Assembly: GCF_030680395.1 (NCBI RefSeq)
Contig: NZ_JAUXVR010000042.1
Coordinates: 1 to 64,000, forward strand
DNA: 64,000 nt
Origin: Methylobacter sp.
GTDB taxonomy: Bacteria > Pseudomonadota > Gammaproteobacteria > Methylococcales > Methylomonadaceae
Direction of reading: 5' to 3'
Shown here: positions 1,624 to 48,078 of the stretch, in pieces
Position numbering within the stretch: the first letter of the stretch is position 1
How the letters are laid out: each line of letters opens with the position of its first letter
Notes under the pieces: generated by a model
The model's database searches: none
Seen by the model: only the letters and a program-made list of their open reading frames with translations
Told to the model about the DNA's origin: nothing
Translations under genes and position numbers: made by a program

Positions 1624-3075
1624 ATGAAACCGATTTTTTACCGTCCTGCTCAGCTGCGCGGCTTGGCTTTTTTGGGCTTATTGTTGCTGGCTCTGGCCAT
1701 ACTCGGCGGCATGATCTGGCGAAATGTACATCACTTTGAAACGGTTTTTTCTTATGTTAACTATTCGCATCGCATCCAGAATGTATCGGTGGGCCTACAG
1801 CAATCGCTGATTGAATATCTGACCGAAACCGCGTCGGATACACATCCCGAGGCGTTAACCAAGACCCTGAATGACATGGATGTTTTGATGACTGATAAAC
1901 GTTATTTGTCGCCGGAAACCAGAACGAGCCTGGAAACGGTCAGAAATATGTTGGCCGATTTGTCCGCACTAAAAAAAGAAGAAAAACACAATCGATTGTT
2001 AACGGCGCTTAAATTGATGAGCGAAACGCTGGATAACGAGGCATTGCAGCGTGAAGAATCGCTGGAGGACATCAGCCGGAATACCCAAACCGAATTGTAT
2101 ATGGCTCTGGCTATATTCACGGCGATATTGTTTGTAGCGGCATTATTTTTACGCTTTAGAATCCTGCACCCGCTTAATGATTTGAGAGAACTGCTGCAAC
2201 GTTTGACCGAAGAAAACTTCACCCCGATCACTACTGATCATCTTGATCCGCTGCTATTGCCGGTGTTTAACAGCTATAACGAGATGGTCAAACATCTTGC
2301 CGAACTCGAAGATGTCAACCGCCTACATGCGCAATCGTTGCAACATGAAGTCAGGTTAGCCACGCAAGCCTTGCTGGAACAGCAATACAGCTTGGCGAAA
2401 ACCGACCGGTTGGCGGCAATAGGTGAAGTGGCAGCGGAATTAGCGCATGAGATACGTAACCCGCTGGCCGGAATTCAAATGGCATTTAATAATTTACGTC
2501 GCGAAATTGAGGACAGAGATCAGCTGGAAAGACTGGATTTGATTAATGCCGAACTGAAACGGATGGCAAGATTGCTTAACGACATGCTCGATCAAAGTCG
2601 TCATTCGCCGGAAGTGGCTACCGCTTTTGATGTGCGGACGTTAATTCGTGATTTGGTGGCGCTGACCCGTTACCAGATTGCCGGATCGATACATTTGGAA
2701 ATAGAGGCTCCCTGTGCGTTGCCGGTACATCTGCCTGAGAGCGGGGTGCGACAAGCTTTGTTGAACCTGATACTGAATGCGGCCGATGCGCTTGAAGGCA
2801 ATCCCGGTACTATCCGTATCAAGGCTCGAACTGACAAACAGGGATTACGTATCGACGTGCAGGATGACGGCATCGGTTTTTCTCAGGATATACTGGAACA
2901 TGGCATCCTCCCATTTCGTACCAGCCGTCAACGCGGTACCGGGCTTGGATTGGCGATGGTGCAACGTTTTGTAAAGGATGTCGGCGGCACGATCAGTCTT
3001 ACTAATCAACCGACTCATGGCGCATGCGTCTCCATATTACTGCCCAATGACTGCATTATTAGAGATAAATTATGA
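1624..3075 (+). CDS. Membrane sensor histidine kinase, NtrB-like
   Basis: This 483-residue protein should sit in the inner membrane. TM1 is about residues 12-32, a mostly helical periplasmic region follows, TM2 is about 158-177, and then a HAMP-like linker and a coiled coil (about 225-260). The DHp helix carries the phospho-acceptor His275 in LAHEIRNPL. The ATPase domain shows the N box (LNLILNAADAL, about 381-391), the G1 box DDGIGF and the G2 box GTGLGLA. It should phosphorylate the response regulator encoded next, whose ATG overlaps this stop by four bases. The periplasmic part has no recognisable ligand domain, so the signal is unknown. Confidence 0.88.
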   Translation: MKPIFYRPAQLRGLAFLGLLLLALAILGGMIWRNVHHFETVFSYVNYSHRIQNVSVGLQQSLIEYLTETASDTHPEALTKTLNDMDVLMTDKRYLSPETRTSLETVRNMLADLSALKKEEKHNRLLTALKLMSETLDNEALQREESLEDISRNTQTELYMALAIFTAILFVAALFLRFRILHPLNDLRELLQRLTEENFTPITTDHLDPLLLPVFNSYNEMVKHLAELEDVNRLHAQSLQHEVRLATQALLEQQYSLAKTDRLAAIGEVAAELAHEIRNPLAGIQMAFNNLRREIEDRDQLERLDLINAELKRMARLLNDMLDQSRHSPEVATAFDVRTLIRDLVALTRYQIAGSIHLEIEAPCALPVHLPESGVRQALLNLILNAADALEGNPGTIRIKARTDKQGLRIDVQDDGIGFSQDILEHGILPFRTSRQRGTGLGLAMVQRFVKDVGGTISLTNQPTHGACVSILLPNDCIIRDKL

Positions 3076-4502
3076 TAGAAACCCTGCTCATCATTGAAGA
3101 TGAAAAGTTGTTAGGTTCGGAGCTGTCCCGTCATTATCGACAGTCCGGCTGGGAAGTGGCGCTGGCTAACAATCTGAGTGAAGCCAGGGAATTATTGCTG
3201 AAGAAGAAAGTAGAGCCGTTACTGATTCTTTCCGATATGAATTTGCCTGATGGTAATGCGCTGGATTTCATGGAAAAGATCAAGAAGGATATTAGCTATA
3301 CCGACGCCGCCAAGGATGGCACAGGTAAGACAATGCCGGGTGCCTATGCCGAATGGCTGTTTTTAACCGGCTACGGCAATGTGCCGGATTCGGTCAGAGC
3401 CTTACGGCTGGGCGCTTACGATTTTCTGGAAAAGCCTTGCGATCTGGACCGCCTTGACCTGATAGTCGCCAGCGCCGCTCGCAGCGCATCCATTCAGCGA
3501 CGGGTTGCCGATCAAACCAAGCACCGGCACCGGCGTTATTCGCCGGATGCTTATGTCGGCCATAGTCAGCAAGCGCAGGGCATACGACAGTTACTGGCAA
3601 AATTGACGCAAGTGCCGTTCAGCGCCCTGATTATCGGCGGCGAGAGCGGCACCGGCAAAGGCCTGGCGGCGCGGATATTGCATTACGGCGGCTCGCGCGC
3701 CCAGCAGCCGATGATTGAAGTGAACTGTGCGGCATTGCCGCGGGAGTTGCTGGAATCGGAATTATTCGGTCACGAACCCGGCGCCTTTACCGGAGCCGCA
3801 GGACGGCATCGCGGTTTGCTCGAACAGGCCGATGGCGGCACCCTGTTCATGGATGAAATCGGTGAAATGCCGCTGGATTTGCAGGCAAAATTGCTCAAAG
3901 TGATTGAAGACCACAAAGTCCGGCGCTTGGGCGGGGAAAAGGAAATTCAGGTCGATGTGCAGATAGTCGCCGCCAGCAACCGTGATCTGGAAAAAATGGC
4001 GCAGGACGGTAGTTTTCGCGCCGATTTATATCATCGCTTAAGTGTGTTCAAATTGATTTTGCCGCCGCTACGCGAGGCGGTAGAAGATCTGGACGAGCTG
4101 GTGCCGTTATTCGTTGCCGAATACAACGCTAAAGCCGGACGGCAGGTTAAAGATATCCCCGATACCGTATGGAACAAACTGAAAGCGCATTATTGGCCGG
4201 GCAATGTCAGGGAGTTGCGTAACGTCATTGAGCGTTGCGTATTATTCTCCGACGGGCCGACATTTCCCGGGCAATGGCTGCAATTGCCCGGGCAGCCTGC
4301 CGTCGAGGCGTTACAAACCGAACAAGGCATTTGGTTGCCGTTGGATGGCAGCATGGCGCTGGACGATATGGATTGTTTTATTATCAAGACTGCTCTGGAG
4401 CGGGCGGACAACAATTTAACCGCAGCGGCCAGAGCGCTGGGGGCTACCCGCGAAACGCTACGCTACCGGGTGCGGAAATATAATCTGAAAACAGCTGATT
4501 GA
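3072..4502 (+). CDS. NtrC-family sigma-54 response regulator
   Basis: This 476-residue protein has the three-part NtrC layout. The receiver domain has the acidic pair ED(E) near residues 9-11, acceptor Asp55 (LSDMNLPDG) and Lys121 (FLEKPC). The AAA+ domain has Walker A GESGTGKG (190-197), the sigma-54 contact loop GAFTGA (237-242) and Walker B GTLFMDE (256-262). A Fis-type helix-turn-helix occupies about 435-476 ([21 protein letters not shown]). The intact GAFTGA loop indicates activation of sigma-54 promoters. The receiver has an insertion of about 15 residues between the acceptor Asp and the conserved Thr (about 72-90). It is paired with the kinase upstream; target genes are unknown. Confidence 0.9.
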
Positions 4503-37568: not shown

Positions 37569-38276
37569 TTAAAAGTTGATAAATAAAGACCCCATAATCA
37601 AGTGATGCATAGTGTTATTGGTATGGGTGGCATCATCCAGATATTGGTTAAGATACCCCGCTTCAGCTCGGAAGCTTTTATTAAAGGTCCAGCCTAGGCC
37701 CGCAAACGCACGATTCTGATCGAAACCGGACTGGCCGCCGAATTTGGTTGAATTGACCCGGATGAAAAATTCGTCCCAGGTAATCAGGCTTAAACGCGGC
37801 TCGAACGCCAGCGGATGCATAAATCGCAGCATCTGGCGAGGCCTGAAACGAACATCATCGCCTTGTATGAAGTTGCTTTCAAATAGGGTTCTAAAGCTGA
37901 AAGTTCCCATATCGGTCGGTAAGACATAACGAAACGCCGGCCAGACATCTTGCTGAGAAACGTAGCTCTTGCCGACATTTTGAGTCGGCAACCACGTATA
38001 GCCTGCCCAGATAGTGGCTCGATCGCTGAGTGAATAGCCCAGCGCCGCACGTGCCATACCCTGATACCAATGATTCCAATCGTCGTCGAAACGGGATTGA
38101 CCTTCCAGCCAGATACGCCCTTTTTCCAACTTGGGATCCACGACTTTCAAACTGCCCTCGCCTATTATTTGCAGCCAGCTACCGGCATCCTGAAACAAGT
38201 CATCTGCCATAGAGGCCATGCTGAAAGAACTCAGAATTACGGCGGCGATTCCCCATAGCTTCATTTTTTTAATCAT
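37569..38276 (-). CDS. DUF2490-type outer-membrane protein
   Basis: This 235-residue protein has a signal peptide (about 1-24, MASMADDL) and alternating hydrophobic strands typical of a beta-barrel, ending in HHLIMGSLFINF with the terminal Phe of outer-membrane proteins. GRIWLEGQSRFDDDWNHWYQG and ATIWAGYTWLPTQ match the DUF2490 family. Ligand unknown. It is 94 bases downstream of the hyfI-like gene on the same strand and could be the last gene of that set, although that is only position. Confidence 0.7.
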   Translation of the reverse strand: MIKKMKLWGIAAVILSSFSMASMADDLFQDAGSWLQIIGEGSLKVVDPKLEKGRIWLEGQSRFDDDWNHWYQGMARAALGYSLSDRATIWAGYTWLPTQNVGKSYVSQQDVWPAFRYVLPTDMGTFSFRTLFESNFIQGDDVRFRPRQMLRFMHPLAFEPRLSLITWDEFFIRVNSTKFGGQSGFDQNRAFAGLGWTFNKSFRAEAGYLNQYLDDATHTNNTMHHLIMGSLFINF

Positions 38277-38369: not shown

Positions 38370-38885
38370 TTATTTTTCAGCGGTAATCAAACCCAATAAT
38401 CCCCTCATCAACGCCAAAGGCGTAGGCGGGCAACCGGGAACCACCGCATCGACCGGAATGACGTTGGATACCGCGCCGCAACTGGCGTAAGACACGCCGA
38501 ATTCGCCGCCGCAGGCCGCGCAGTCACCGGCTGCAACCACCCATTTCGGGTTCGGTGTCGCCTCGTAAGTGCGCAGTAACGCGGTCTGCATATGTCTTGA
38601 AACCGGCCCTGTGACCAGCAGCACGTCGGCGTGCCGCGGCGAGGCGACAAAATGGACGCCGAAACGTTCAATATCGTAAAAAGGATTATTCAGTGCATGA
38701 ATTTCCAGCTCGCAGCCGTTACAGGAACCTGCATCGACCTGGCGTATTGCTATGCTGCCGGAAAACTTCTTGTCTATGTATCTTTTAATCTCAATGCCAA
38801 GTTGCTCAAGCTCTTCATCTTTTGGAACTTTAAATTGTTCTGTGACAACACCCGTGGTCAGGATTTTTTTAAAAATTCTCAGCAT
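38370..38885 (-). CDS. HyfI/NuoB-like Fe-S subunit
   Basis: This 171-residue protein resembles the small subunit of hydrogenase-4 and NuoB. Cys55 and Cys58 (SCNGCE), Cys122 (GDCAACGG) and Cys152 (PGCPP) match the ligands of the proximal 4Fe-4S cluster; Cys125 and Cys136 are extra. Thus an Fe-S centre is probably kept. It lies 9 bases after the hyfG-like gene, the last of six Hyf-like genes. Cytoplasmic, facing the membrane arm. Confidence 0.85.
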   Translation of the reverse strand: MLRIFKKILTTGVVTEQFKVPKDEELEQLGIEIKRYIDKKFSGSIAIRQVDAGSCNGCELEIHALNNPFYDIERFGVHFVASPRHADVLLVTGPVSRHMQTALLRTYEATPNPKWVVAAGDCAACGGEFGVSYASCGAVSNVIPVDAVVPGCPPTPLALMRGLLGLITAEK

Positions 38886-38894
38886 GTTCCCTTC

Positions 38895-40469
38895 CTATAA
38901 ATCATTGCCTGAATAAGAGCCATTCAGGGATTTGTTGCACACAGGAAAATCCGGCACGATATTATTCAACACCAGTTTTTCCAGCGCAGGCCAGTTTAAT
39001 TGACTGGGGTCGCGCGGATAAAAACGGGCGATGTTGTTATCGGCATCAAAACGAATGTAGCTGATAATTTCGCCTCGCCAGCCTTCAACAATGCCCAGAC
39101 CTTCACTACCTGCGACAGGTGTTTGCCATTCGGCGCGTAGTTCCCCGGCAACAAGCCGGTCGATAAAATTTTCTATCAGCCGTAAAGCTGTTCTGATTTC
39201 CTTGTACCTGACCCATAATCTGGAGGCAATATCGCCCTGTGTTTCCAGTGTGACTTTAACCGTAACTTGATCATAGGGCGCATAGGGCGCATCGCGACGC
39301 ACATCCTTATCCTGTCCGCTGGCCCGTCCGACGTAGCCTACGGTTCCAAATGCGGCGGCAATTTCTTCAGACAAAAAACCGGCCGTATACAGCCGGTCTT
39401 CCAATGAAGAATTGAGATCCAGCGCGAGTATGACTTCCGTCAGCTCTTTTCTTAATTCGGTTATCTCCTTCTTGATCAGAGCGCAGGACTCATCCGACAG
39501 ATCACATACCACACCGCCGGGAATAATTTTATCCATCAACAGGCGATGACCGAAAACCGTTGCATTGGTGCGCTGCCAGAGTTCGCGCAAACGGCTAAAC
39601 TGCATTTGCGCGAACACAAAAGCGACGTCATTACAGATTGCGCCTATATCGCCCATGTGGTTGGCGACGCGTTCCCGTTCGGCCAGAATGCCGCGAATTA
39701 AGGCGGCTCGAGGCGGAATTATCACACCCGCCGCTTGCTCCATTGCCATGCAGGCGGCCCAACAATGCCCGACAGTGGTATCGCCGGAGACACGCCCGGC
39801 CAGCCTGGCTAAAGACTCTGGTTCTCTACCCTCGGCAATTTTTTCTATGCCTTTATGTACGTAGCCCAAACGTTCTTCCAGATTCAGGATCAATTCGCCG
39901 ACGGCCTGAAACCGGAAATGTCCGGGCTCAATGATTCCGGCATGCACCGGTCCTACCGGAATTTCATACGTACCGGCACCGTGGGATTTAATAAACGGAT
40001 AATGCATGTCAGGCGGCGTGATGCCTACTGGAGTGCCCTGAACAGGAAAATCTTTTCGTAACGGATAGTTTTTTTCAATCCAGGCCTGATGCCGCGTCCA
40101 ACGCCTGTCATCCGGATGCCCGACAAATTTGATCCCGAACATGTCTTGCGTATGACGTTCACTGCGGTTGGCGGCGGGATAAACCGTCGCCTGGCTAGGT
40201 AGTTCAGGATTTGAAGCATCAATGATCGTGCGCAGAAGAAGGTATTCACCCTGTTTTTCAAAGCAGGTGTTGATGAAAAACCGGTGCTCAATATGTTCCG
40301 CCCATCCGGCAGCCCAACGCAGGTTTTGCTGCACGGCCAATTCTGCAAATTGTTGCCATGCGTGGCTTTCTATTTGCCACAGTGTTACCGAGGATATATC
40401 GATCTGGGTAACAGTAATATCCGTACTCAGTCGGCTTAAAAAATCCGCAGTCCAGTTTGAAGAACTCAT
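38895..40469 (-). CDS. HyfG/NuoCD-like large subunit lacking NiFe ligands
   Basis: ATG 40469 overlaps the hyfF-like stop (ATGA), so the 524-residue form is used. The first 150 residues are a NuoC-like domain (HTQDMFGIKFVGHPD); the rest is NuoD/HycE-like. Hydrogenase large subunits carry two Cys pairs for nickel-iron. Here the first site reads RVSGDT (226-231) in place of RVCGIC, and the C-terminal site reads PDFPVC (506-511) and SYSGNDL with no CxxC. Therefore it is unlikely to be a hydrogenase. It resembles the complex-I quinone-site subunit and may work without hydrogen. Confidence 0.85.
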   Translation of the reverse strand: MSSSNWTADFLSRLSTDITVTQIDISSVTLWQIESHAWQQFAELAVQQNLRWAAGWAEHIEHRFFINTCFEKQGEYLLLRTIIDASNPELPSQATVYPAANRSERHTQDMFGIKFVGHPDDRRWTRHQAWIEKNYPLRKDFPVQGTPVGITPPDMHYPFIKSHGAGTYEIPVGPVHAGIIEPGHFRFQAVGELILNLEERLGYVHKGIEKIAEGREPESLARLAGRVSGDTTVGHCWAACMAMEQAAGVIIPPRAALIRGILAERERVANHMGDIGAICNDVAFVFAQMQFSRLRELWQRTNATVFGHRLLMDKIIPGGVVCDLSDESCALIKKEITELRKELTEVILALDLNSSLEDRLYTAGFLSEEIAAAFGTVGYVGRASGQDKDVRRDAPYAPYDQVTVKVTLETQGDIASRLWVRYKEIRTALRLIENFIDRLVAGELRAEWQTPVAGSEGLGIVEGWRGEIISYIRFDADNNIARFYPRDPSQLNWPALEKLVLNNIVPDFPVCNKSLNGSYSGNDL

Positions 40470-41929
40470 AACGGCGTACTCCCGGAAATTAACAGTGTAG
40501 CCTGTGAAAACCAATTAGCCAGAAAACCGGGGATAGCCAGGCCCAGCCAAAGCACCAAGGCCAAATGTATCGTGACCGGCCATAAGTTCGCGGCAATCGG
40601 ATTTTGACCTTCGGGCCTGTCGCCGTAAACCATCGGCTGGATATGCCTGAACAATCCAGCAAAGGCGATGCCAATACCCAGCAACAGCAATGGCGCTAAC
40701 CAGGGATAACTGTGCATGGTAGCCAGCAGCACCAGAAACTCACTGGTAAACACGCCGAACGGCGGAAACCCGGCAATGGCAATAGTGCCGATCAATAATC
40801 CCCAGCCGACCTTGGGTTGAGTTTTAATCAAGCCGCGGATCTGATCTATACGCTGGGTTCCGGCAAGCTGAGCTGCATGGCCTACTGTCACAAAAATGGC
40901 CGATTTGGTCAACGAATGCACGGTCATGTGCAACAGCGCGGCAAAAGTGGCTAGCGGGCCGCCGATGCCGAACGCAAACGTCATCAGTCCCATGTGCTCA
41001 ATAGATGAGTAACTGAACAGTCTTTTAATATCTTTCTGCCGATGCAGCAATATCGCGGCAACCAGAAACGACAGCATACCGAAGCCCATCATAAGAAAAC
41101 CCGCCATATTGGAATCGGTCGCACCATCCACCAGCATTTTATTACGCACCACGGCGTATAGGGCATCGTTTAACAGCAATCCCGACAACACTGCAGACAT
41201 GGGCGTCGGACCTTCGGAATGAGCGTCGGGTAACCAGTTATGCAACGGCACCAAACCAATTTTGGTGCCGTAACCAATCAGTAAAAAAACAAAGGCAATT
41301 TCCAGGATTTCCGGATTTAATTTGTCGGCATTTTCATAAAGTACCGACCACAGCAAAGCATTTTCCCCATCGCCGATCTGCACCGCCGCGTAATACAGCA
41401 AAATGGTGCCGAACAAAGCTTGGGCAATACCTACGCCACAGAGGATGAAGTATTTCCACGCCGCCTCAATAGACTCCGGGGTACGATACAAACTGACCAG
41501 CAACACCGTTGCCAGCGTTGCGCCTTCCATCGCCACCCACATAATGCCCATATTATTGGTGGTCAACACCAGGTACATGGCCAGCATAAAACCCTGAAAC
41601 ATCGAGTGATACAGCTTTAAGCGCCGGTCATTGAGCTTGCCGATTTCCTTTTCATGCGCCATATAGGGCGAGGAAAATATCGACGTGGTAAAGCCGACAA
41701 AAGCGGTCAACACAATCAAATACACATTAAACGGATCGATTAAAAAAGCCTTGCCCGATGAAATAATCGTACCCTGATTGAGCACGTTGATCGCCAGCCA
41801 GATAGTCGCCAGCAAACAAATGCCGTTAAACCGGACATTAACTTTTCCGGTGTCTGCTCTGTGTCCCGCCAACGCAAAATAGAATATGCCGACTAACGGT
41901 ATTAATAAGACCAAATAGGCGGCAATCAT
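40466..41929 (-). CDS. HyfF-like antiporter-type membrane subunit
   Basis: This 487-residue protein has about 13-14 helices and belongs to the NuoL/M/N and Mrp antiporter group. The conserved stretch LPDAHSEGPTPMSAVLSGLLLNDALYAVVRN and SIEHMGLMTFAFGIGGP are typical of HyfF. A Glu on an early helix (MEGATLATVLLVSLY) and Lys residues in later helices would form the ion path. It overlaps both neighbours by four bases. Confidence 0.88.
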   Translation of the reverse strand: MIAAYLVLLIPLVGIFYFALAGHRADTGKVNVRFNGICLLATIWLAINVLNQGTIISSGKAFLIDPFNVYLIVLTAFVGFTTSIFSSPYMAHEKEIGKLNDRRLKLYHSMFQGFMLAMYLVLTTNNMGIMWVAMEGATLATVLLVSLYRTPESIEAAWKYFILCGVGIAQALFGTILLYYAAVQIGDGENALLWSVLYENADKLNPEILEIAFVFLLIGYGTKIGLVPLHNWLPDAHSEGPTPMSAVLSGLLLNDALYAVVRNKMLVDGATDSNMAGFLMMGFGMLSFLVAAILLHRQKDIKRLFSYSSIEHMGLMTFAFGIGGPLATFAALLHMTVHSLTKSAIFVTVGHAAQLAGTQRIDQIRGLIKTQPKVGWGLLIGTIAIAGFPPFGVFTSEFLVLLATMHSYPWLAPLLLLGIGIAFAGLFRHIQPMVYGDRPEGQNPIAANLWPVTIHLALVLWLGLAIPGFLANWFSQATLLISGSTPL

Positions 41930-42603
41930 TTGTCCACCTCGTGTAACTTGTTTAACAGATCGACATCCAGCGAATCAATACTGGTGCGAATGTGTAAGAA
42001 AAAGATGCCGAACAGCACCGCAGCCACCAGTACGTCGAACGCCACGCCCAGTTCAACCACCATCGGCATGCCATTGGTGGCGACGATAGCCGCGAAGAAC
42101 AAGCCGTTTTCTATCGACATAAAGCCAACTACATGAGCGATAGCCTGCCGATGCGAAATCATCAGCAACATGCCCAGCAGCATCACTGACAAACTAACCG
42201 CCAGAGCATTCACCATAACCACCGATGAGGATTGCACAATCGGATGTAGCACGTAATAACTGAATACCATCAAACTGGCGCCGCCCAGCATCACGGCAGT
42301 ATTGTTTTTTAATGCTTCAACATCGCGATGCATATTCATTCGCAGAACCTCCCGTCTTAACATCCACGGAATAAAAACAACTTTCAGCACTAAAGTCAGC
42401 ACGGCTGAAATATAGAGATGATGATTATTCAAGCTGTATGCCGCCAATGCTGTGGTCAAGGTTAATAAAAAACCCTGCATCGCAAACACAAAGATCAGCC
42501 TAAGTAATCTCCCCTGCCCTAACATAAGAAACGAGGTAAGTCCCACCAATGCGGCCATCGATAAAATGGCCTGGGTATAAAAATCTAATTGTTCAATATT
42601 CAT
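41926..42603 (-). CDS. HyfE-like membrane subunit
   Basis: ATG 42603 (MNIEQLDFYTQAIL) is taken as the start; the frame continues upstream through a repeat-like sequence. The 225-residue product has six or seven helices and HyfE/NuoK-like features: IAHVVGFMSIENGLFFAAI and the C-terminal FDVLVAAVLFGIFFLHIRTSIDSLDVD. It would be part of the ion-translocating arm. It overlaps hyfF by four bases. Confidence 0.85.
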   Translation of the reverse strand: MNIEQLDFYTQAILSMAALVGLTSFLMLGQGRLLRLIFVFAMQGFLLTLTTALAAYSLNNHHLYISAVLTLVLKVVFIPWMLRREVLRMNMHRDVEALKNNTAVMLGGASLMVFSYYVLHPIVQSSSVVMVNALAVSLSVMLLGMLLMISHRQAIAHVVGFMSIENGLFFAAIVATNGMPMVVELGVAFDVLVAAVLFGIFFLHIRTSIDSLDVDLLNKLHEVDK

Positions 42604-42610
42604 GAGTAAG

Positions 42611-42710
42611 ATCCAAAAAGGCAAAGGGCGAAGGGCGAATGGCAAAGGGCTAAAGGCTAGACTTGATGCGATTTTCGTCTTTTGCCTTTTGCCCTTCGCC
42701 TTCCTTAACG
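42611..42710. repeat. Inverted repeat between hyfC- and hyfE-like genes
   Basis: A run of AAGGCAAAGGGCGAAGGG-like units at about 42618-42650 pairs imperfectly with TTTGCCTTTTGCCCTTCGCC at 42680-42703. This short hairpin-forming repeat separates two genes of one operon and might affect mRNA stability or be a scattered repeat. Confidence 0.45.
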
Positions 42711-43649
42711 TGACGCCTCCAAAATAATGTGGCTCAACAATCCAAGCAGCCCCAACAAATAAGCAAAACTAAGATATTCTTGCACTCGAAACAGGCGCAT
42801 TTTGGCAAACAGCGTCTCCGCAACCGCCAGGAATATTGCCAACACCGCAAGCTTGCCCATAATAGCCAGCAAGCCGTAGCCTAACGCTTGAACGTCAAAC
42901 GTTTCGGCGATACCCCAGGGAAAAAAGATATTGGCGATCAATACGCCATACAGCATCAGCTTCAATTGACTGGCCCATTCAATCAACGCCAGATGACGGC
43001 CGCTGTATTCAAGAATCATCGCTTCATGAATCATGGTCAGCTCCAGATGCGTCGACGGATTATCTACCGGAATGCGCCCTGTTTCGGCGATGGCAACCAG
43101 AGTCAAGGCCGCTAAGGCAAAGACAAACGAAGGCCTTAAAACCAAGCCTTCATTGAGCACATGGGAGATGGCAAACGATAAATTAGTCGTTGAGGCGGTC
43201 ATGGTCAGGGTAAAAATAGCCATCAACATCGCAGGTTCTGCCAGCGATGAAATAGTCATTTCCCTCGACGAGCCCATACCACCGAATGCGGTACCAACGT
43301 CCAATCCGGCCAGCGCCAGAAAAAACCGGGCAAAAGCAAAAAAACCTACCATCACAATCACATCGGCACTGGCCGAAGTCGGTAAATCAACGGCAATCAA
43401 CGGCACAACCGTTGCTGCCAGCACTGTTGCTGAAAAAATAATATAGGGCGCTTTAATAAATAACCATGAAGCTTGTTCCGAGACTACCGGTTGTTTGTGA
43501 GTCAATTTAATTAAATCCCGATAAGGCTGAAATAAAGACGGGGCTTTACGATTTTGTAATCGACATTTGCAGCATTTAATCCAGCCTGCCAGCAGCGGCG
43601 CCAATGCGACAAACAATAGTGTTTGTAAAATAGCTATTAACCAGTTCAT
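42705..43649 (-). CDS. HyfC/NuoH-like membrane subunit
   Basis: The start at 43649 (MNWLIAILQTLLFV) overlaps the hyfB-like stop (ATGA); a start 15 bases earlier (43664) is possible. The 314-residue protein has about eight helices, with the conserved cytoplasmic segment RLQNRKAPSLFQPYRDLIKL, GMGSSREMTISSLAEPAM and IPVDNPSTHLELTMIHEAM, all of the NuoH/HyfC type. It would connect the Fe-S arm with the ion-pumping arm. Confidence 0.9.
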   Translation of the reverse strand: MNWLIAILQTLLFVALAPLLAGWIKCCKCRLQNRKAPSLFQPYRDLIKLTHKQPVVSEQASWLFIKAPYIIFSATVLAATVVPLIAVDLPTSASADVIVMVGFFAFARFFLALAGLDVGTAFGGMGSSREMTISSLAEPAMLMAIFTLTMTASTTNLSFAISHVLNEGLVLRPSFVFALAALTLVAIAETGRIPVDNPSTHLELTMIHEAMILEYSGRHLALIEWASQLKLMLYGVLIANIFFPWGIAETFDVQALGYGLLAIMGKLAVLAIFLAVAETLFAKMRLFRVQEYLSFAYLLGLLGLLSHIILEASR

Positions 43650-45775
43650 CAGCTGATCACCCATAACATAATAATTAACGTCACAAACGAATAGCCCAGA
43701 TAAACCCGGATATTGCCTGTTTGAATGCGGCCCACCACTTTGGCTAATTTGTTTATCCCGTGTTCAATCGGATGATATAAACGCGGCCAGCTATGATCCT
43801 GAATCTGCAAGTGATAATGAACTGCAGCAACATCCTGGTTCATTGCGCCTTGCATGTCTTTATCGATCTGCTCGTCAATAATCCAGACTTTGGCGAAAAT
43901 CCGCCGGAACGGCATGGTAAAAGCGCTGCTGCTGTATTGCATGCGCGGCCTTAGTCCGCCAAAACCGCAATCCCAGGTTTCAGAGATACGCAATGCCGTT
44001 GCGGGATTGCGCCGCAAATACCAAAAACTGATGCAACCGGCAATCAGCGCACCGATCAAAACCAATGGCGGAGCGTAAGAAGATTGACTGGTAGAAACCG
44101 GCGCCAGCCACAACCAGCCTAAAGCGGCGTCATTTGGCAAGGTTTCGCCTAATAATTGCCCTGCAACACTGTTGATCAGACTGATGACCGGGCCGGGGAA
44201 AATTCCGAATAAGAAACACAAACCGGCCAGCAGCGCAGGACCCGCCAGCATGCCTTTGTCCTGGACTTCATGGGCTTTCTCGCAATGATGAGAACGCGGC
44301 TGTCCCAAAAAAATCAAGCCGAATACTTTGACAAAACAGGCTGCCGCCAATGCCGCTGTCAAGGCTAATGCGGCAGCGGCTACCGGTATCAAACTGCGCA
44401 ATACGCCATTGTTTAGCACATCGACCTGCAATGCGGTCTGAAAAGCCAGCCATTCCGAAACAAAGCCGTTAAACAACGGTAATGACGAAATACTCATGCA
44501 ACCGATCAAAAACAACATACTGGTTTTCGGCATCTTTTTAATCAGCCCTCCCATCATGTCAATATTTAACTGGTGGGTTTGATGATGAATCATACCGGCC
44601 CCAAGAAACAGCAGGTTCTTGAACAACGCATGATTGAAGGCATGAAACAGCGCCGCCAAAAAGCCCAGCGCAGCCAGTTGCGGATGGCCGTTTGCCATAA
44701 AAATCATCGACAGCCCCAGCACCATAAAGATAATGCCGATGTTTTCGACCGAACTGTAGGCCAAAAGGCGTTTTAAATTGGTCTGCATCATCGCATACAA
44801 AATACCGCCCAGCGCCGAGACGGTACCCAATACCAGCAATACCACACCCCATTGCCAATGCACATCGCCCAGCAAATCAAAGCAAAAACGGATTAATCCG
44901 TAGAGTGCGACTTTAAGCATCACACCGCTCATCAATGCGGAAATATGCGAAGGCGCCACCGGATGCGCTTCCGGCAGCCAGACATGCACAGGGACGATCC
45001 CGGCTTTCATACCGAAACCCAGCAAGGCAAGCATAAAAGCGATGCTGGCCCAGGTTGACGACAAGTGCGCCTCACGCAAGGCGCCAAAGGTAAAACCGTC
45101 AGAAAAACTAGCCAGTACGCCAAAGCCCAGAATAATGGCTAATGCACCGACTTCAGCCATCAGTAAATAAAGAAAAGCGGCGCGGCGATTGGCTGAGTTT
45201 TCATGCTGGAACGCCACCAGAAAGTAACTGGCAACCGACATCAACTCCCAGGCAATCATGAAAAAGAAGGCGTCATCAGCCAACAACACCAGCAACATCC
45301 CGGCAACAAACAGCCCGGTAAATAAGCCCAAGACTGCAAAAGGATGCTGGCTTTCATCGTAACTATTCACATAGCCAGGCCCATATAAACTGACCGCACT
45401 TGTGGCAATACCGACGATTAAAAAGAAAAAACCGGATAAGCAATCAAAACGAACATGCCAAGGCACCCAAGGCAATCCTAAGCTAAGTTGATCGGTAATC
45501 ACCTCTTTACCGATCAATACGCCTAACCCCGCCAATATCGCGAAAACACCGGACAAGCCCAGTAAAACAAACACCGCTTGCCGCAATAAAAAAGGAAAGT
45601 GTTTTTCTTCAAGACTATTGGCAATTGCCGATTGAGAACAGTCATTCCCATGCGGGGATTTTTTAAACCAGTGCTGGCTAAATTCCAGTACATGCAGGCG
45701 CTGATTCATCAGCAAGGCCAGTAAACCGGAAAAAAAACTGAGGAGAACAGCGCCATAAGCTAATGCAAGGATCAT
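43649..45775 (-). CDS. HyfB-like antiporter-type membrane subunit
   Basis: This 708-residue protein has about 16-17 helices and is NuoL/HyfB-like. GYVNSYDESQHPFAVLGLFTGLFVAG, the Glu-bearing IAWELMSVASYFLVAFQH, WLPEAHPVAPSHISALMSGVMLKVALYGLIRF and SSVENIGIIFMVLGLS identify the group. A soluble C-terminal tail (about 600-690) contains WDCGFGGLRPRMQYSSSAFTMPFR, a typical HyfB ending. It is the first of the six Hyf-like genes, 39 bases after the SulP gene. Confidence 0.9.
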   Translation of the reverse strand: MILALAYGAVLLSFFSGLLALLMNQRLHVLEFSQHWFKKSPHGNDCSQSAIANSLEEKHFPFLLRQAVFVLLGLSGVFAILAGLGVLIGKEVITDQLSLGLPWVPWHVRFDCLSGFFFLIVGIATSAVSLYGPGYVNSYDESQHPFAVLGLFTGLFVAGMLLVLLADDAFFFMIAWELMSVASYFLVAFQHENSANRRAAFLYLLMAEVGALAIILGFGVLASFSDGFTFGALREAHLSSTWASIAFMLALLGFGMKAGIVPVHVWLPEAHPVAPSHISALMSGVMLKVALYGLIRFCFDLLGDVHWQWGVVLLVLGTVSALGGILYAMMQTNLKRLLAYSSVENIGIIFMVLGLSMIFMANGHPQLAALGFLAALFHAFNHALFKNLLFLGAGMIHHQTHQLNIDMMGGLIKKMPKTSMLFLIGCMSISSLPLFNGFVSEWLAFQTALQVDVLNNGVLRSLIPVAAAALALTAALAAACFVKVFGLIFLGQPRSHHCEKAHEVQDKGMLAGPALLAGLCFLFGIFPGPVISLINSVAGQLLGETLPNDAALGWLWLAPVSTSQSSYAPPLVLIGALIAGCISFWYLRRNPATALRISETWDCGFGGLRPRMQYSSSAFTMPFRRIFAKVWIIDEQIDKDMQGAMNQDVAAVHYHLQIQDHSWPRLYHPIEHGINKLAKVVGRIQTGNIRVYLGYSFVTLIIMLWVIS

Positions 45776-45814
45776 GAAATCCTCCTATTCGATAAGGTGA
45801 AAACCATTGTTTGT

Positions 45815-47500
45815 TTATACGCCGTAATGATCGCTTTTACGACGACTCATGTTATTTCGCTTCATTCTGCGTACTGCCAAAGGGTGTTCTGAAAAGGTAT
45901 CATGATGTTCCATACCGAAAAACCGACATTGCCCTCCCTGCCTTTCATAGTTATGCTGAAAATCATGAATAAACTCCATCACGGTATGATCGATTAAGTA
46001 TGCATTGTTTAATTGAAAGATAACCGTTTTGCCGTAATCCAGACTGGCTAAAGCAGTCTTCAATGACATAAAGTTAGAAAAAATCGCAGCGCCGACTATC
46101 GAAACCACAACAGAATCGGCATTTTTCGGTTCAATAACAAAATGAATCTTAAACAGATTATTCGGTCTGACGCCGCGCAGCATATGGATAACAAACTTGG
46201 TTAGAATGCCGATACCGACACCTATTAATAAATCGGTCGCCAATACACCGATAATTGTCACGACGAACATAAATAACTGTTCTTTACCAACTCCCATGAC
46301 CTTGGCGAATTCTCTAGGCGAGGCCAGACGAAAACCGGTATAAACTAACAATGCTGCCAATGCAGCCAATGGAATACTATGAATCAGCCGTGGAAACAGC
46401 ACCACAAACAACAACATAAAAGTGCCGTGAAAAAAGTTGGCCCACTGGGTTTTTGCCCCATTATTCACATTAGCCGAACTACGTACGATCTCGGCAATCA
46501 TCGGTAAGCCGCCGACTAAACCGGCCAACAAATTACCGACACCAACGGCTGCCAAGTCGCGATCAAGATTAGAATGACGTTTATACGGATCAAGTTTGTC
46601 GACTGCCATAGTGCTAAGCAAGCTCTCCAGACTGCCGACCAAGCTGATACTGACAACAGCTTCCCAGAACCCTAGCTTGGTGACTTTCGAAAAATCCGGA
46701 AAATAAAAACCGGACATAAAGTTTTCAGAAATCGCAACCAAAAACTTCGGTCCGATGGTTTCTTCATGATGCGGTAAAAAATGTGCATCCGGCAGAAACA
46801 AATACATATGCTCATGTTCCAGATCAAAATATCGCGCCAGGCCCATCCCTGCCAATACCACAATAAGCGGTGCCGGAATCATCTTTAAGGTTGGGTTTTT
46901 CACCATTGACCAAATAATCAATATCACCAACCCGGTAAAACCGATAATGGCTATTTCATGATTAGGGTTCAGAAGGCTGTGCGGAATTTGCGCGATGGTC
47001 GAAAACAGGCTGCTGTCTTTTTCCGGCATAGCGCCAAGCATGACATGGATCTGTTTAGCCATAATAATGATACCGATAGCCGCCAACATGCCATGTACCA
47101 CCGATGCCGGAAAAAACGAACTGAGCCGCCCGGCTTTAAACACCCCCATTAAGATTTGCATGACACTGGCAACCACAATAGCTGCCAAGGCATAACGATA
47201 ACCTGCCATCGCATCGCCTTCGCCCAATTCTTGTACCGCACTGAGCACCACCACGATCAACCCGGCAGCCGGGCCATTAATGGTTATAAACGACCCGTTG
47301 ACACGAGAAACCAGTATCCCGCCGATAATAGCAGTAATAATACCGGCCGATGGAGGAAACCCGGAAGCCATCGAAATACCCAGGCACAGCGGCAAGGCAA
47401 TAAGAAAAACCAGAAAACCGGACAGCAAATCACTACGCCAGTTTTCTTTTAAACCGGCTAAACCGGACTTTGGTAACACTGACAGCGATAGTTCACTCAT
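45815..47500 (-). CDS. SulP-family anion transporter with STAS domain
   Basis: This 561-residue inner-membrane protein has about 12 helices of the SulP type. The N-terminal segment ISMASGFPPSAGIITAIIGGILVSRVNGS and the middle EAVVSISLVGSLESLLSTMAVDKLDP are typical. A STAS domain lies at about 440-540, followed by a basic tail (RRMKRNNMSRRKSDH). SulP members carry sulfate, bicarbonate or other anions; which one is not decided by sequence. Its place directly upstream of the Hyf-like genes suggests a joint role. Confidence 0.9.
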   Translation of the reverse strand: MSELSLSVLPKSGLAGLKENWRSDLLSGFLVFLIALPLCLGISMASGFPPSAGIITAIIGGILVSRVNGSFITINGPAAGLIVVVLSAVQELGEGDAMAGYRYALAAIVVASVMQILMGVFKAGRLSSFFPASVVHGMLAAIGIIIMAKQIHVMLGAMPEKDSSLFSTIAQIPHSLLNPNHEIAIIGFTGLVILIIWSMVKNPTLKMIPAPLIVVLAGMGLARYFDLEHEHMYLFLPDAHFLPHHEETIGPKFLVAISENFMSGFYFPDFSKVTKLGFWEAVVSISLVGSLESLLSTMAVDKLDPYKRHSNLDRDLAAVGVGNLLAGLVGGLPMIAEIVRSSANVNNGAKTQWANFFHGTFMLLFVVLFPRLIHSIPLAALAALLVYTGFRLASPREFAKVMGVGKEQLFMFVVTIIGVLATDLLIGVGIGILTKFVIHMLRGVRPNNLFKIHFVIEPKNADSVVVSIVGAAIFSNFMSLKTALASLDYGKTVIFQLNNAYLIDHTVMEFIHDFQHNYERQGGQCRFFGMEHHDTFSEHPLAVRRMKRNNMSRRKSDHYGV

Positions 47501-48078
47501 GCAAATCCTCGTAATTATAAGAAGGTTTTAACACGTCATACGCGATAATCGTGCCAACCTGCTTTGTTCTTATAACTGCATGATTTTAAGTATTAGTTTT
47601 TATTGTCAGGTTGTAAATAAAGAACCATGCGGTGCAAAACAACCGATCAGTTGTTGTTTTGCACCGGTGCCGAAAAAACTGTCTGATGTTTTGGCTTGTC
47701 AATCCAGGTTAAATTCCTACTGGCTATAGTGTTCAGCTTTTTTGTAGATTGGTAGGCCGATTAGGAAGCCGTTGACGGAGAATAACGAGAAGCCGGCCAG
47801 TGAATTCTTATTTTCAGGGAGATTTTCGAAAACAGTTTATTGAAGTATATTTGGAAGGTTTATAAACATCTCCAGAAAAATATACATAGCAGTATTATCG
47901 ATACTGTATGCGAAGACTTTTTCTCTCAGCCATGCCGTTGATCTCTTGAAAAGATGATTATTTGAGAAAAGCTAACGGTGATTGGATAGCACCTGACACC
48001 CCCTACCAACCCAGAAGCTGCTTGCTTGGGCCGTGATGCCCAAGCAAGCTATTAAGCAATAGCGACTTCGCAAGTCAA
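47501..48078. other. Regulatory intergenic region before the SulP-Hyf set
   Basis: No protein gene is seen in 578 bases. It has a perfect 13-base hairpin (47631-47665), a palindromic site CAGTAT-n5-ATACTG (47890-47906) and, near the other end, a hairpin after the Met-rich gene (about 48019-48047). It probably contains the promoter of the SulP-Hyf set. Confidence 0.5.
47631..47665. promoter_or_regulatory. Long perfect hairpin upstream of the SulP gene
   Basis: GGTGCAAAACAAC (47631-47643) pairs perfectly with GTTGTTTTGCACC (47653-47665) across a nine-base loop. It lies about 130 bases before the SulP start on the same strand side and has no T-run. It may be a leader hairpin or an operator. Confidence 0.45.

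Follow-up and report, generated by a model that had tools for sequence, protein, structure and literature searches.

A hyq-type gene cluster without nickel-iron ligands, headed by a SulP transporter gene, in Methylobacter

We analyzed a stretch of 64,000 nucleotides from Methylobacter sp. (RefSeq assembly GCF_030680395.1, contig NZ_JAUXVR010000042.1, positions 1 to 64,000), referred to here as the window. It contains a SulP anion transporter gene followed on the minus strand by hyfB, hyfC, hyfE, hyfF, hyfG and hyfI. An initial annotation, made from the DNA letters, had proposed this arrangement, and NCBIfam and Pfam matches bore it out (Table 1). HyfC, HyfE, HyfG and HyfI matched the NuoH, HyfE, NuoC/NuoD and NuoB models of NCBIfam, respectively, mostly below the cut-offs. 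The best solved relatives of HyfB, HyfC, HyfG and HyfI are formate hydrogenlyase subunits 3, 4, 5 and 7, and that of HyfF is NADH dehydrogenase subunit N (entry 6u8y). SulP is separated from hyfB by 39 bp, hyfC from hyfE by 101 bp, hyfG from hyfI by 9 bp, and hyfI from a DUF2490 gene by 93 bp; gene ends overlap at hyfB/hyfC, hyfE/hyfF and hyfF/hyfG. The nearest named HyfG, with 93% identity, is that of M. tundripaludum SV96, and the genome is Methylobacter-like.

Table 1. Features of the window considered in this study
Feature	Position	Strand	Match or remark
SulP anion transporter, first cluster gene, 561 aa	45815..47500	-	Pfam Sulfate_transp, 208 bits
hyfB/hyqB, NuoL-like antiporter subunit	43649..45775	-	NCBIfam hydrogenase 4 subunit B, 815 bits (cut-off 667)
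hyfC/hyqC, NuoH-like subunit	42705..43664	-	Pfam NADHdh, 126 bits
hyfE/hyqE, small membrane subunit, ATG at 42603	41926..42603	-	NCBIfam hydrogenase 4 membrane subunit, 81 bits, under cut-off 136
hyfF/hyqF, NuoM/N-like antiporter subunit	40466..41929	-	NCBIfam hydrogenase 4 subunit F, 783 bits (cut-off 543)
hyfG/hyqG, NuoCD-like large subunit without NiFe ligands, ATG at 40469	38895..40469	-	
hyfI/hyqI, NuoB-like subunit, one 4Fe-4S site	38370..38885	-	
DUF2490 protein gene, directly 3' of hyfI	37569..38276	-	Pfam DUF2490, 162 bits
sigma54-like -24/-12 site TGGCACGATTATCGCG, 56 bp before the SulP ATG	47541..47556	-	
Inverted repeat, 14-bp arms, 9-bp loop, 110 bp upstream of the sigma54-like site	47630..47666	-	
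Sensor histidine kinase	1624..3072	+	Pfam HisKA, HATPase_c; likely part of the operon's regulator
sigma54-dependent response regulator	3072..4499	+	Pfam Response_reg, Sigma54_activat, HTH_8; likely part of the operon's regulator

The gene order B-C-E-F-G-I was kept in all 40 named loci that span hyfB to hyfI. SulP headed the cluster in 37 of the 40 named Methylococcales loci in which this could be tested; 16 of the 37 carry a tandem pair. No leading SulP was present in L057, L063 and L069, and the SulP frame was broken into pieces in L043 and L044. Compared with three relatives, all seven genes had ratios of nonsynonymous to synonymous substitution rates (dN/dS) of 0.03-0.16, indicating purifying selection. 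Given these low ratios and the invariant gene order, the locus is not a chance arrangement. A DUF2490 homologue on the same strand 3' of hyfI was found in 23 loci, all with the window's gene order (19 of the 40 assessable named loci, together with L235-L238).

The initial annotation had stated that HyfG lacks the nickel-iron (NiFe) ligands of hydrogenase large subunits, and this was confirmed. In an alignment to HycE (formate hydrogenlyase subunit 5), RVCGICG is replaced by RVSGDTT and SLDPCYSCTD by SLNGSYSGND, with the loss of all four ligand cysteines. Of the two ligand-site readings offered earlier, RVSGDT was right and PDFPVC was misplaced: it sits just upstream of the second ligand pair, which reads SYSG, and its Cys526 corresponds to Cys491 of the R. 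johnstonii homologue and is no ligand. HyfG still passed the Pfam NiFe-hydrogenase cut-off, via only 67 N-terminal profile positions. Large subunits of group 4 NiFe hydrogenases carry a C-terminal extension after the last ligand, which is cut off on maturation. This extension is absent from HyfG, which ends one residue past SYSGND, whereas HycE (581 aa) continues beyond aligned residue 548. An AlphaFold model of HyfG, built with 20 related rows, had a mean predicted local distance difference test score (pLDDT) of 51.

The six-gene core is already known as the Hyq complex of Azorhizobium and relatives. In Azorhizobium caulinodans, Hyq was described as an "endo-hydrogenase" encoded by hyqRBCEFGI (PMC2650096, PMC3357923), which has in common with the window the six genes in equal order, the lack of CxxC pairs and a sigma54-type control; the absence of the CxxC pairs from HyqG was already remarked on in 2012 (PMC3357923). 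In comparison, the window adds SulP and the DUF2490 gene and has no recognized regulator gene directly in front; a separate two-component activator is likely. The A. caulinodans proteins were represented in our comparisons by the R. johnstonii homologue and a plasmid homologue of Azospirillum brasilense. Window HyfG and the R. johnstonii protein were 44% identical over 434 aligned columns. In a FastTree phylogeny of 122 rows, in which close Methylobacter rows were thinned, 42 forks stayed open and some branches were long, 111 HyqG proteins formed one starred clade that included those of the window and of the Rhizobium and Azospirillum plasmids. The 11 rows outside it were six of the four-cysteine Hyc/Hyf type and five of another ligand-less type.

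Matches at E <=1e-60 were found in 45 of 369 sampled genomes of the class and 75 of 397 sampled genomes of the phylum. The class count of Hyq genomes used below is 44, with G181 left out; 11 genomes at 230-275 bits form the tail of the phylum list, and the six of these that were read have four cysteines and are thus Hyc/Hyf. Among 131 HyqG sequences, a single cysteine at a ligand position occurred in 5 and two occurred in none. Position 243 was a cysteine in 3 of 131 and position 246 in 2 of 131, and positions 533 and 536 never were in the rows that cover them (3-5 of the 131 stop short of the C-terminal ligand positions). The family has instead the signature RVSGD(S/T)...NKSxNxSYSGxD, with D245, N285, H286, D289, D404, R406, R432 and R436 invariant in 131 of 131 sequences, P524, K528, S529, G536 and D538 invariant in every covering row, and 66 positions at least 98.5% identical. 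The alignment thus places a conserved Asp/Lys/Ser/Asn set around the old ligand positions of HyfG. Three other HyqG cysteines (258, 491 and 497 in A. caulinodans) were called completely conserved by the authors of the 2012 study (PMC3357923). In the wider family they were present in 114 of 131, 98 of 128 and 34 of 128 sequences, respectively. Window HyfG, aligned via Cys259, Cys491 and Cys497 of the R. johnstonii protein, shares two of them with it, Cys294 and Cys526, and has Gly532 at the third position.

We then considered the genes expected around a hydrogenase. HypD was scanned for in 80 of the 104 Hyq genomes; it was present in 38 and absent from 42 (present in 37 of the 78 high-quality genomes). 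The genome studied here has HypD elsewhere, together with two other loci that score above the Pfam NiFe large-subunit cut-off. Judged by HypD, Hyp maturation genes are a trait of this genome but not of the Hyq family. The initial annotation had held that a hyp set combined with displaced ligand cysteines would speak against it; hypD is indeed present, but the cysteines are absent rather than displaced. No CxxCxxCxxxC/P ferredoxin motif was detected in stop-to-stop frames of at least 60 aa in the window, the part of the genome that was searched. Likewise, Pfam reported no NuoE, NuoF or NuoG among the seven cluster proteins, the flanks of the cluster not having been searched for an NADH module. 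Because the HyqG family lacks the ligand cysteine pairs and HypD is missing from 42 of 80 carrier genomes, we conclude on sequence grounds that the locus does not encode a NiFe hydrogenase.

By contrast with the NiFe ligands, residues of the proton path and of the iron-sulfur cluster were retained. The former were picked in part by alignment to solved antiporter-like subunits. E177, K257, K335, K386 and E441 of HyfB were kept in 116-118 of 120 loci, E208, E214 and E219 of HyfC in 122 of 122, K88 and E198 of HyfE in 125 of 125 with E179 in 124 of 125, and E135, K223, K342 and E397 of HyfF in 127-129 of 129. As for the cluster cysteines of HyfI, C55, C58 and C122 were present in 121 of 121 loci and C152 in 120 of 121. 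The complex-I-like build proposed earlier is upheld. At the level of the predicted proteins, Hyq is conserved as a proton-moving complex and is a pared-down member of the complex I/group 4 hydrogenase superfamily.

A sigma54-like site lies in front of SulP. The pattern TGGCAY-N6-NGCW was found within 150 bp on either side of the start of the first open reading frame (ORF) in 26 of 38 named loci, compared with 0.0165 expected per locus, and controls with the spacing shifted by one base gave 0 of 38 and 1 of 38. This count leaves out the site of the window, whose last base is G. Inverted repeats with arms of at least 12 bp occur in 11 of the 27 site-bearing sequences, including the window, at a distance of 107-139 bp upstream. 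The repeat may be a hairpin or terminator, since the stem is conserved but the loop ranges from 2 to 9 bases in length, or it may be an activator site. No NifA box (TGT-N10-ACA) was found in the 600 bp upstream of SulP. In 9 named loci, an orthologue of the window's histidine kinase (66-90% identity) starts 11-3149 bp downstream of hyfI. Orthologues of the response regulator (80-90% identity) occur in 10 named loci, in 9 of them after hyfI and in one between two SulP genes (L048). In one genome (G027), SulP (at 0.75 Mb) and hyq (at 3.81 Mb) are far apart on one 4.0-Mb contig, and sigma54-like sites are found at both, in the strict form at hyfB and in a looser form at SulP; a two-component pair lies 3' of SulP, with a response regulator 70% identical to that of the window. 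Of eight further Hyq loci, L153, L235, L236, L237 and L238 have a sigma54-like site. The pattern suggests that SulP, hyq and the two-component system form one regulon, and the pair of genes at 1624-4499 probably encodes the activator of the cluster. SulP, the six hyf genes and the DUF2490 gene may well be encoded as one cluster behind the sigma54-like promoter. The published Hyq identity, the DUF2490 gene, the sigma54-like site and the two-component system were all missing from the initial annotation; what is new here is the sigma54-like site at the named loci and the predicted link of a sigma54 two-component system to the operon.

The transporter had been described as SulP-STAS. The SulP part of that description held. 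Pfam reported no STAS domain for it at E 0.001, and two related SulPs had STAS scores of 20.8 and 25.3 bits (cut-off 22.6). The protein stayed far below the NCBIfam cut-offs for BicA (128 bits versus 880) and DauA (191 bits versus 614). A SulP tree was built from 44 rows, 15 loci and matches shorter than 380 aa having been dropped; long branches meet in it, including those of two SulPs of this genome in the sister clade. The window SulP grouped with other Hyq-linked SulPs, and the sister clade holds this genome's own SulP-carbonic anhydrase fusion. The SulP of L212 fell into the Hyq-linked clade at an open fork; it lies directly before hyqB, and the nearest Hyq relative, L214, has no SulP. A separate recruitment of SulP in L212 would fit. 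The SulP type of the window was found in 5 of 369 class genomes: with Hyq here, far from hyq in G027, and without any Hyq match in G278, G063 and G215. The order SulP-hyfBCEFGI, which the initial annotation had suggested seeking in other genomes, was found among Methylococcales; SulP as a general part of Hyq is not supported.

The neighbors of these SulPs bear on the cargo. In G063 (L263:3-7730), the genes for a related SulP and DabA overlap and an antiporter-like gene is close by, which may represent a SulP-DAB operon. In G215, SulP adjoins a beta-carbonic anhydrase gene; its neighbors are the two-component system in G027 and unannotated ORFs in G278. In Methylovulum (L050:12742-17189), DabA and a NuoL-like (DabB-type) gene lie between hyfI and the DUF2490 gene, giving the order SulP-SulP-hyfBCEFGI-DabA-NuoL-like-DUF2490; this was the only DabA match in the 149 named and wider loci. 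Because SulP relatives stand beside DabA or carbonic anhydrase and DabA is found inside the Methylovulum operon, bicarbonate is a fair guess as the SulP cargo, and this candidate of the initial annotation is now better backed. The DAB pump (DabA/DabB; PMC13144422) has a NuoL-like membrane subunit in common with Hyq; the window itself differs in having no DabA (no ORF like the G063 DabA). On a Methylomagnum plasmid (L254:3788-6599), genes annotated as amoABC lie a few genes from a SulP 58% identical to that of the window, and near the SulP of a Persicobacter plasmid, no match was found with the panel of RuBisCO, DabA and carbonic anhydrase queries.

The reading we prefer, with a probability of roughly one half, is that of a Hyq-type, non-NiFe, proton-moving complex that forms one regulated unit with SulP, the latter probably carrying bicarbonate. 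A soluble low-potential donor would feed electrons through the single HyfI cluster to an acceptor close to where HyfG meets HyfC, for which quinone is the simplest candidate, and electron transfer would be coupled reversibly to proton movement through HyfB and HyfF. In Methylococcales, SulP would be made together with the complex, and the membrane gradient would drive its carriage of an anion, most likely bicarbonate; we make no claim that SulP is physically attached to the complex. Several observations weigh against this reading. No electron donor or acceptor is assigned. The quinone ligands of complex I, which we take to be those numbered His38 and Tyr87, had no counterpart in the NuoCD alignment of HyfG as read. 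SulP stands directly in front in only 4 of 87 wider Hyq loci (L212, of another class, and L235, L237 and L238, of the same order), some of the remaining 83 being cut off upstream. Inorganic-carbon genes were found in 2 of the 6 non-Hyq neighborhoods of the window's SulP type, and the SulP of G215 is only 38% identical and has a stop in frame. Of the 27 loci whose sequence continues for 4 kb or more beyond hyfI, 7 carry the two-component pair within the next 4.5 kb. A sigma54-like site was looked for without success upstream of hyfB in L239 and L234 and upstream of SulP in L212, L261, L263 and L254. RuBisCO was not enriched in class genomes with Hyq (23 of 44, versus 163 of 325 without; p 0.87, uncorrected for ancestry). 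Not every SulP carries bicarbonate, since only one of two from Thiomicrospira pelophila rescued carbonic-anhydrase-less Escherichia coli (PMC12628692). Finally, H2 evolution by diazotrophic cultures of A. caulinodans rose about 15-fold when hyq was deleted, and a strain with nifK and ΔhupSL mutations still gave 56,600 pmol H2 per 10^9 cells per min under microaerobic conditions (PMC3357923, Table 2). These data fit H2 turnover better and are the strongest evidence against a purely non-H2 reading.

They also speak for taking Hyq, in line with the proposal made for Azorhizobium, as an H2:quinone oxidoreductase with a non-NiFe active site that recycles nitrogenase H2 in diazotrophic methanotrophs, which we nevertheless regard as quite unlikely. 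Such a role would agree with the NifA/sigma54 control of hyq in A. caulinodans (PMC2650096) and with the presence of nifH in this genome. Among class genomes, nifH was over the cut-off in 14 of 44 with Hyq versus 19 of 325 others (odds ratio 7.5, Fisher p 2.5e-6), or in 13 of 43 when this genome was left out (p 8.9e-6), both comparisons being uncorrected for ancestry. Against it, the other 30 of the 44 had no nifH over the cut-off, the ligand cysteines are gone, HypD is missing from over half of the scanned carriers, and the supposedly invariant cysteines vary. HydDB, moreover, scored the large subunit of Acidithiobacillus ferrooxidans, whose hyfBCEFGI had been called a group 4 hydrogenase in 2008 (PMC2621215), as a non-hydrogenase in 2020 (PMC7735108). 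In a Methylobacter survey, Nif coincides with an Rnf-type ferredoxin oxidoreductase cluster (PMC12810054), and nitrogenase in Methylobacter therefore has another electron source. Rather unlikely, too, is that SulP and Hyq make up one inorganic-carbon uptake machine like DAB or NDH-1MS, in which proton movement by Hyq would power bicarbonate import or CO2 hydration. The SulP neighbors in Methylovulum, G063 and G215 and the paired sigma54-like sites of G027 would suit such a machine, as would two cases of proximity to RuBisCO: hyf genes AFE2149-54 of A. ferrooxidans abut form II RuBisCO AFE2155 by locus tag (PMC2621215; AFE_2155 also in PMC6458275), and G337 has a RuBisCO-like ORF 6.6 kb from hyqG. 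Against such a machine, the latter was the only one in 149 loci, scanned with four query sequences that distant forms may escape, and DabA was equally rare. Most wider Hyq loci had no SulP found in front, and this genome has a separate SulP-carbonic anhydrase fusion and no RuBisCO match. A carbon-fixation role is not borne out by these data, and a RuBisCO link as a general rule was rejected by the co-occurrence test in 369 class genomes, despite the proximity in A. ferrooxidans and G337.

Two further explanations were considered. In one, the complex is a redox-silent Mrp-type ion channel or antiporter in which HyfG and HyfI are merely structural. The kept channel residues and the lack of a visible ferredoxin-type subunit in the window accord with it, but near-complete retention of the four HyfI cluster cysteines (120-121 of 121 loci) and the many near-invariant HyfG positions would be needless for a mere plug, and we consider it improbable. 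In the other, the locus is what is left of a hydrogenase-4 operon in decay. In its favor, the cluster lacks genes found in the E. coli hyf operon, presumably H and J among them. The absence of hyfA and hyfD from hyq has been noted as well (PMC2650096). The idea was refuted by the dN/dS values, the order kept in 40 of 40 loci and the family-wide HyqG signature, and we give it practically no credence. A broader proposal goes beyond our preferred reading: Hyq would be a new energy-coupling class of the complex I superfamily with a rebuilt, metal-free pocket, and its sigma54 two-component wiring to SulP (once with DabA) in Methylococcales would make an inorganic-carbon concentrating module without RuBisCO. 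We regard this as doubtful. In any case, a complex reported to consume and make H2 has no NiFe ligand, and about half of the searched carriers have no HypD. Either it is an H2 enzyme of novel chemistry, or the H2 phenotypes are indirect and a widespread proton pump has a substrate to be found. With its additional transporter, promoter site and likely dedicated regulator, the Methylococcales form makes the question testable in cultured methanotrophs.

Other systems resemble the cluster in part. Formate hydrogenlyase and hydrogenase-4 of E. coli (group 4a) have homologous subunits and provide the closest solved structures for HyfB, HyfC, HyfG and HyfI; they differ in having the NiFe ligands and a ferredoxin-type subunit, neither of which was seen in the window. 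The Ehr (energy-converting hydrogenase-related) complexes are complex I relatives without NiFe ligands, and Hyq resembles them in this respect; the other ligand-less type in our set (L228-L232) is separate from Hyq in the tree. The same six-gene unit, hyfBCEFGI, is present in A. ferrooxidans and Cupriavidus (PMC2621215, PMC7735108, PMC2864759); a role in lithotrophic growth was judged very unlikely by the authors for Cupriavidus (PMC2864759), and the passages on these two units do not mention a SulP in front. In A. ferrooxidans, RuBisCO lies next to the unit by locus tag. A Methylobacter survey lists NiFe hydrogenase groups 1d, 1e, 2c and 3d, and its main text does not contain "hyf" (PMC12810054). 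Among the matches listed in the open-access literature surveyed, no description of a SulP-hyf unit was found.

Some minor observations were made along the way. The hyfC-hyfE spacer (42604-42704, 101 bp) contains GGCGAAGGGCAAAAGGC-like units and inverted copies of them, and no second copy of the spacer was found within the window. The gene order was mostly equal in the wider Hyq loci. Family f38 deviates, its hyq genes being reduced or scattered: L149 yielded only G, L150 F and G along with a distant SulP (72 bits), and L152 no I. In L193, HyfF was matched and no separate HyfG frame was present; the HyfG match forms part of a 1007-aa open frame, which may encode a fusion. Over the 87 wider loci, small helix-turn-helix genes recurred upstream in 13 and 11 loci (clusters judged by eye from one member each). 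Another ligand-less NuoCD-like family (L228-L232), found in several class genomes, has R(F/L/V)SG at the first ligand site and the order C-E-F-G-I-B, and L230 carries two copies of it on opposite strands.

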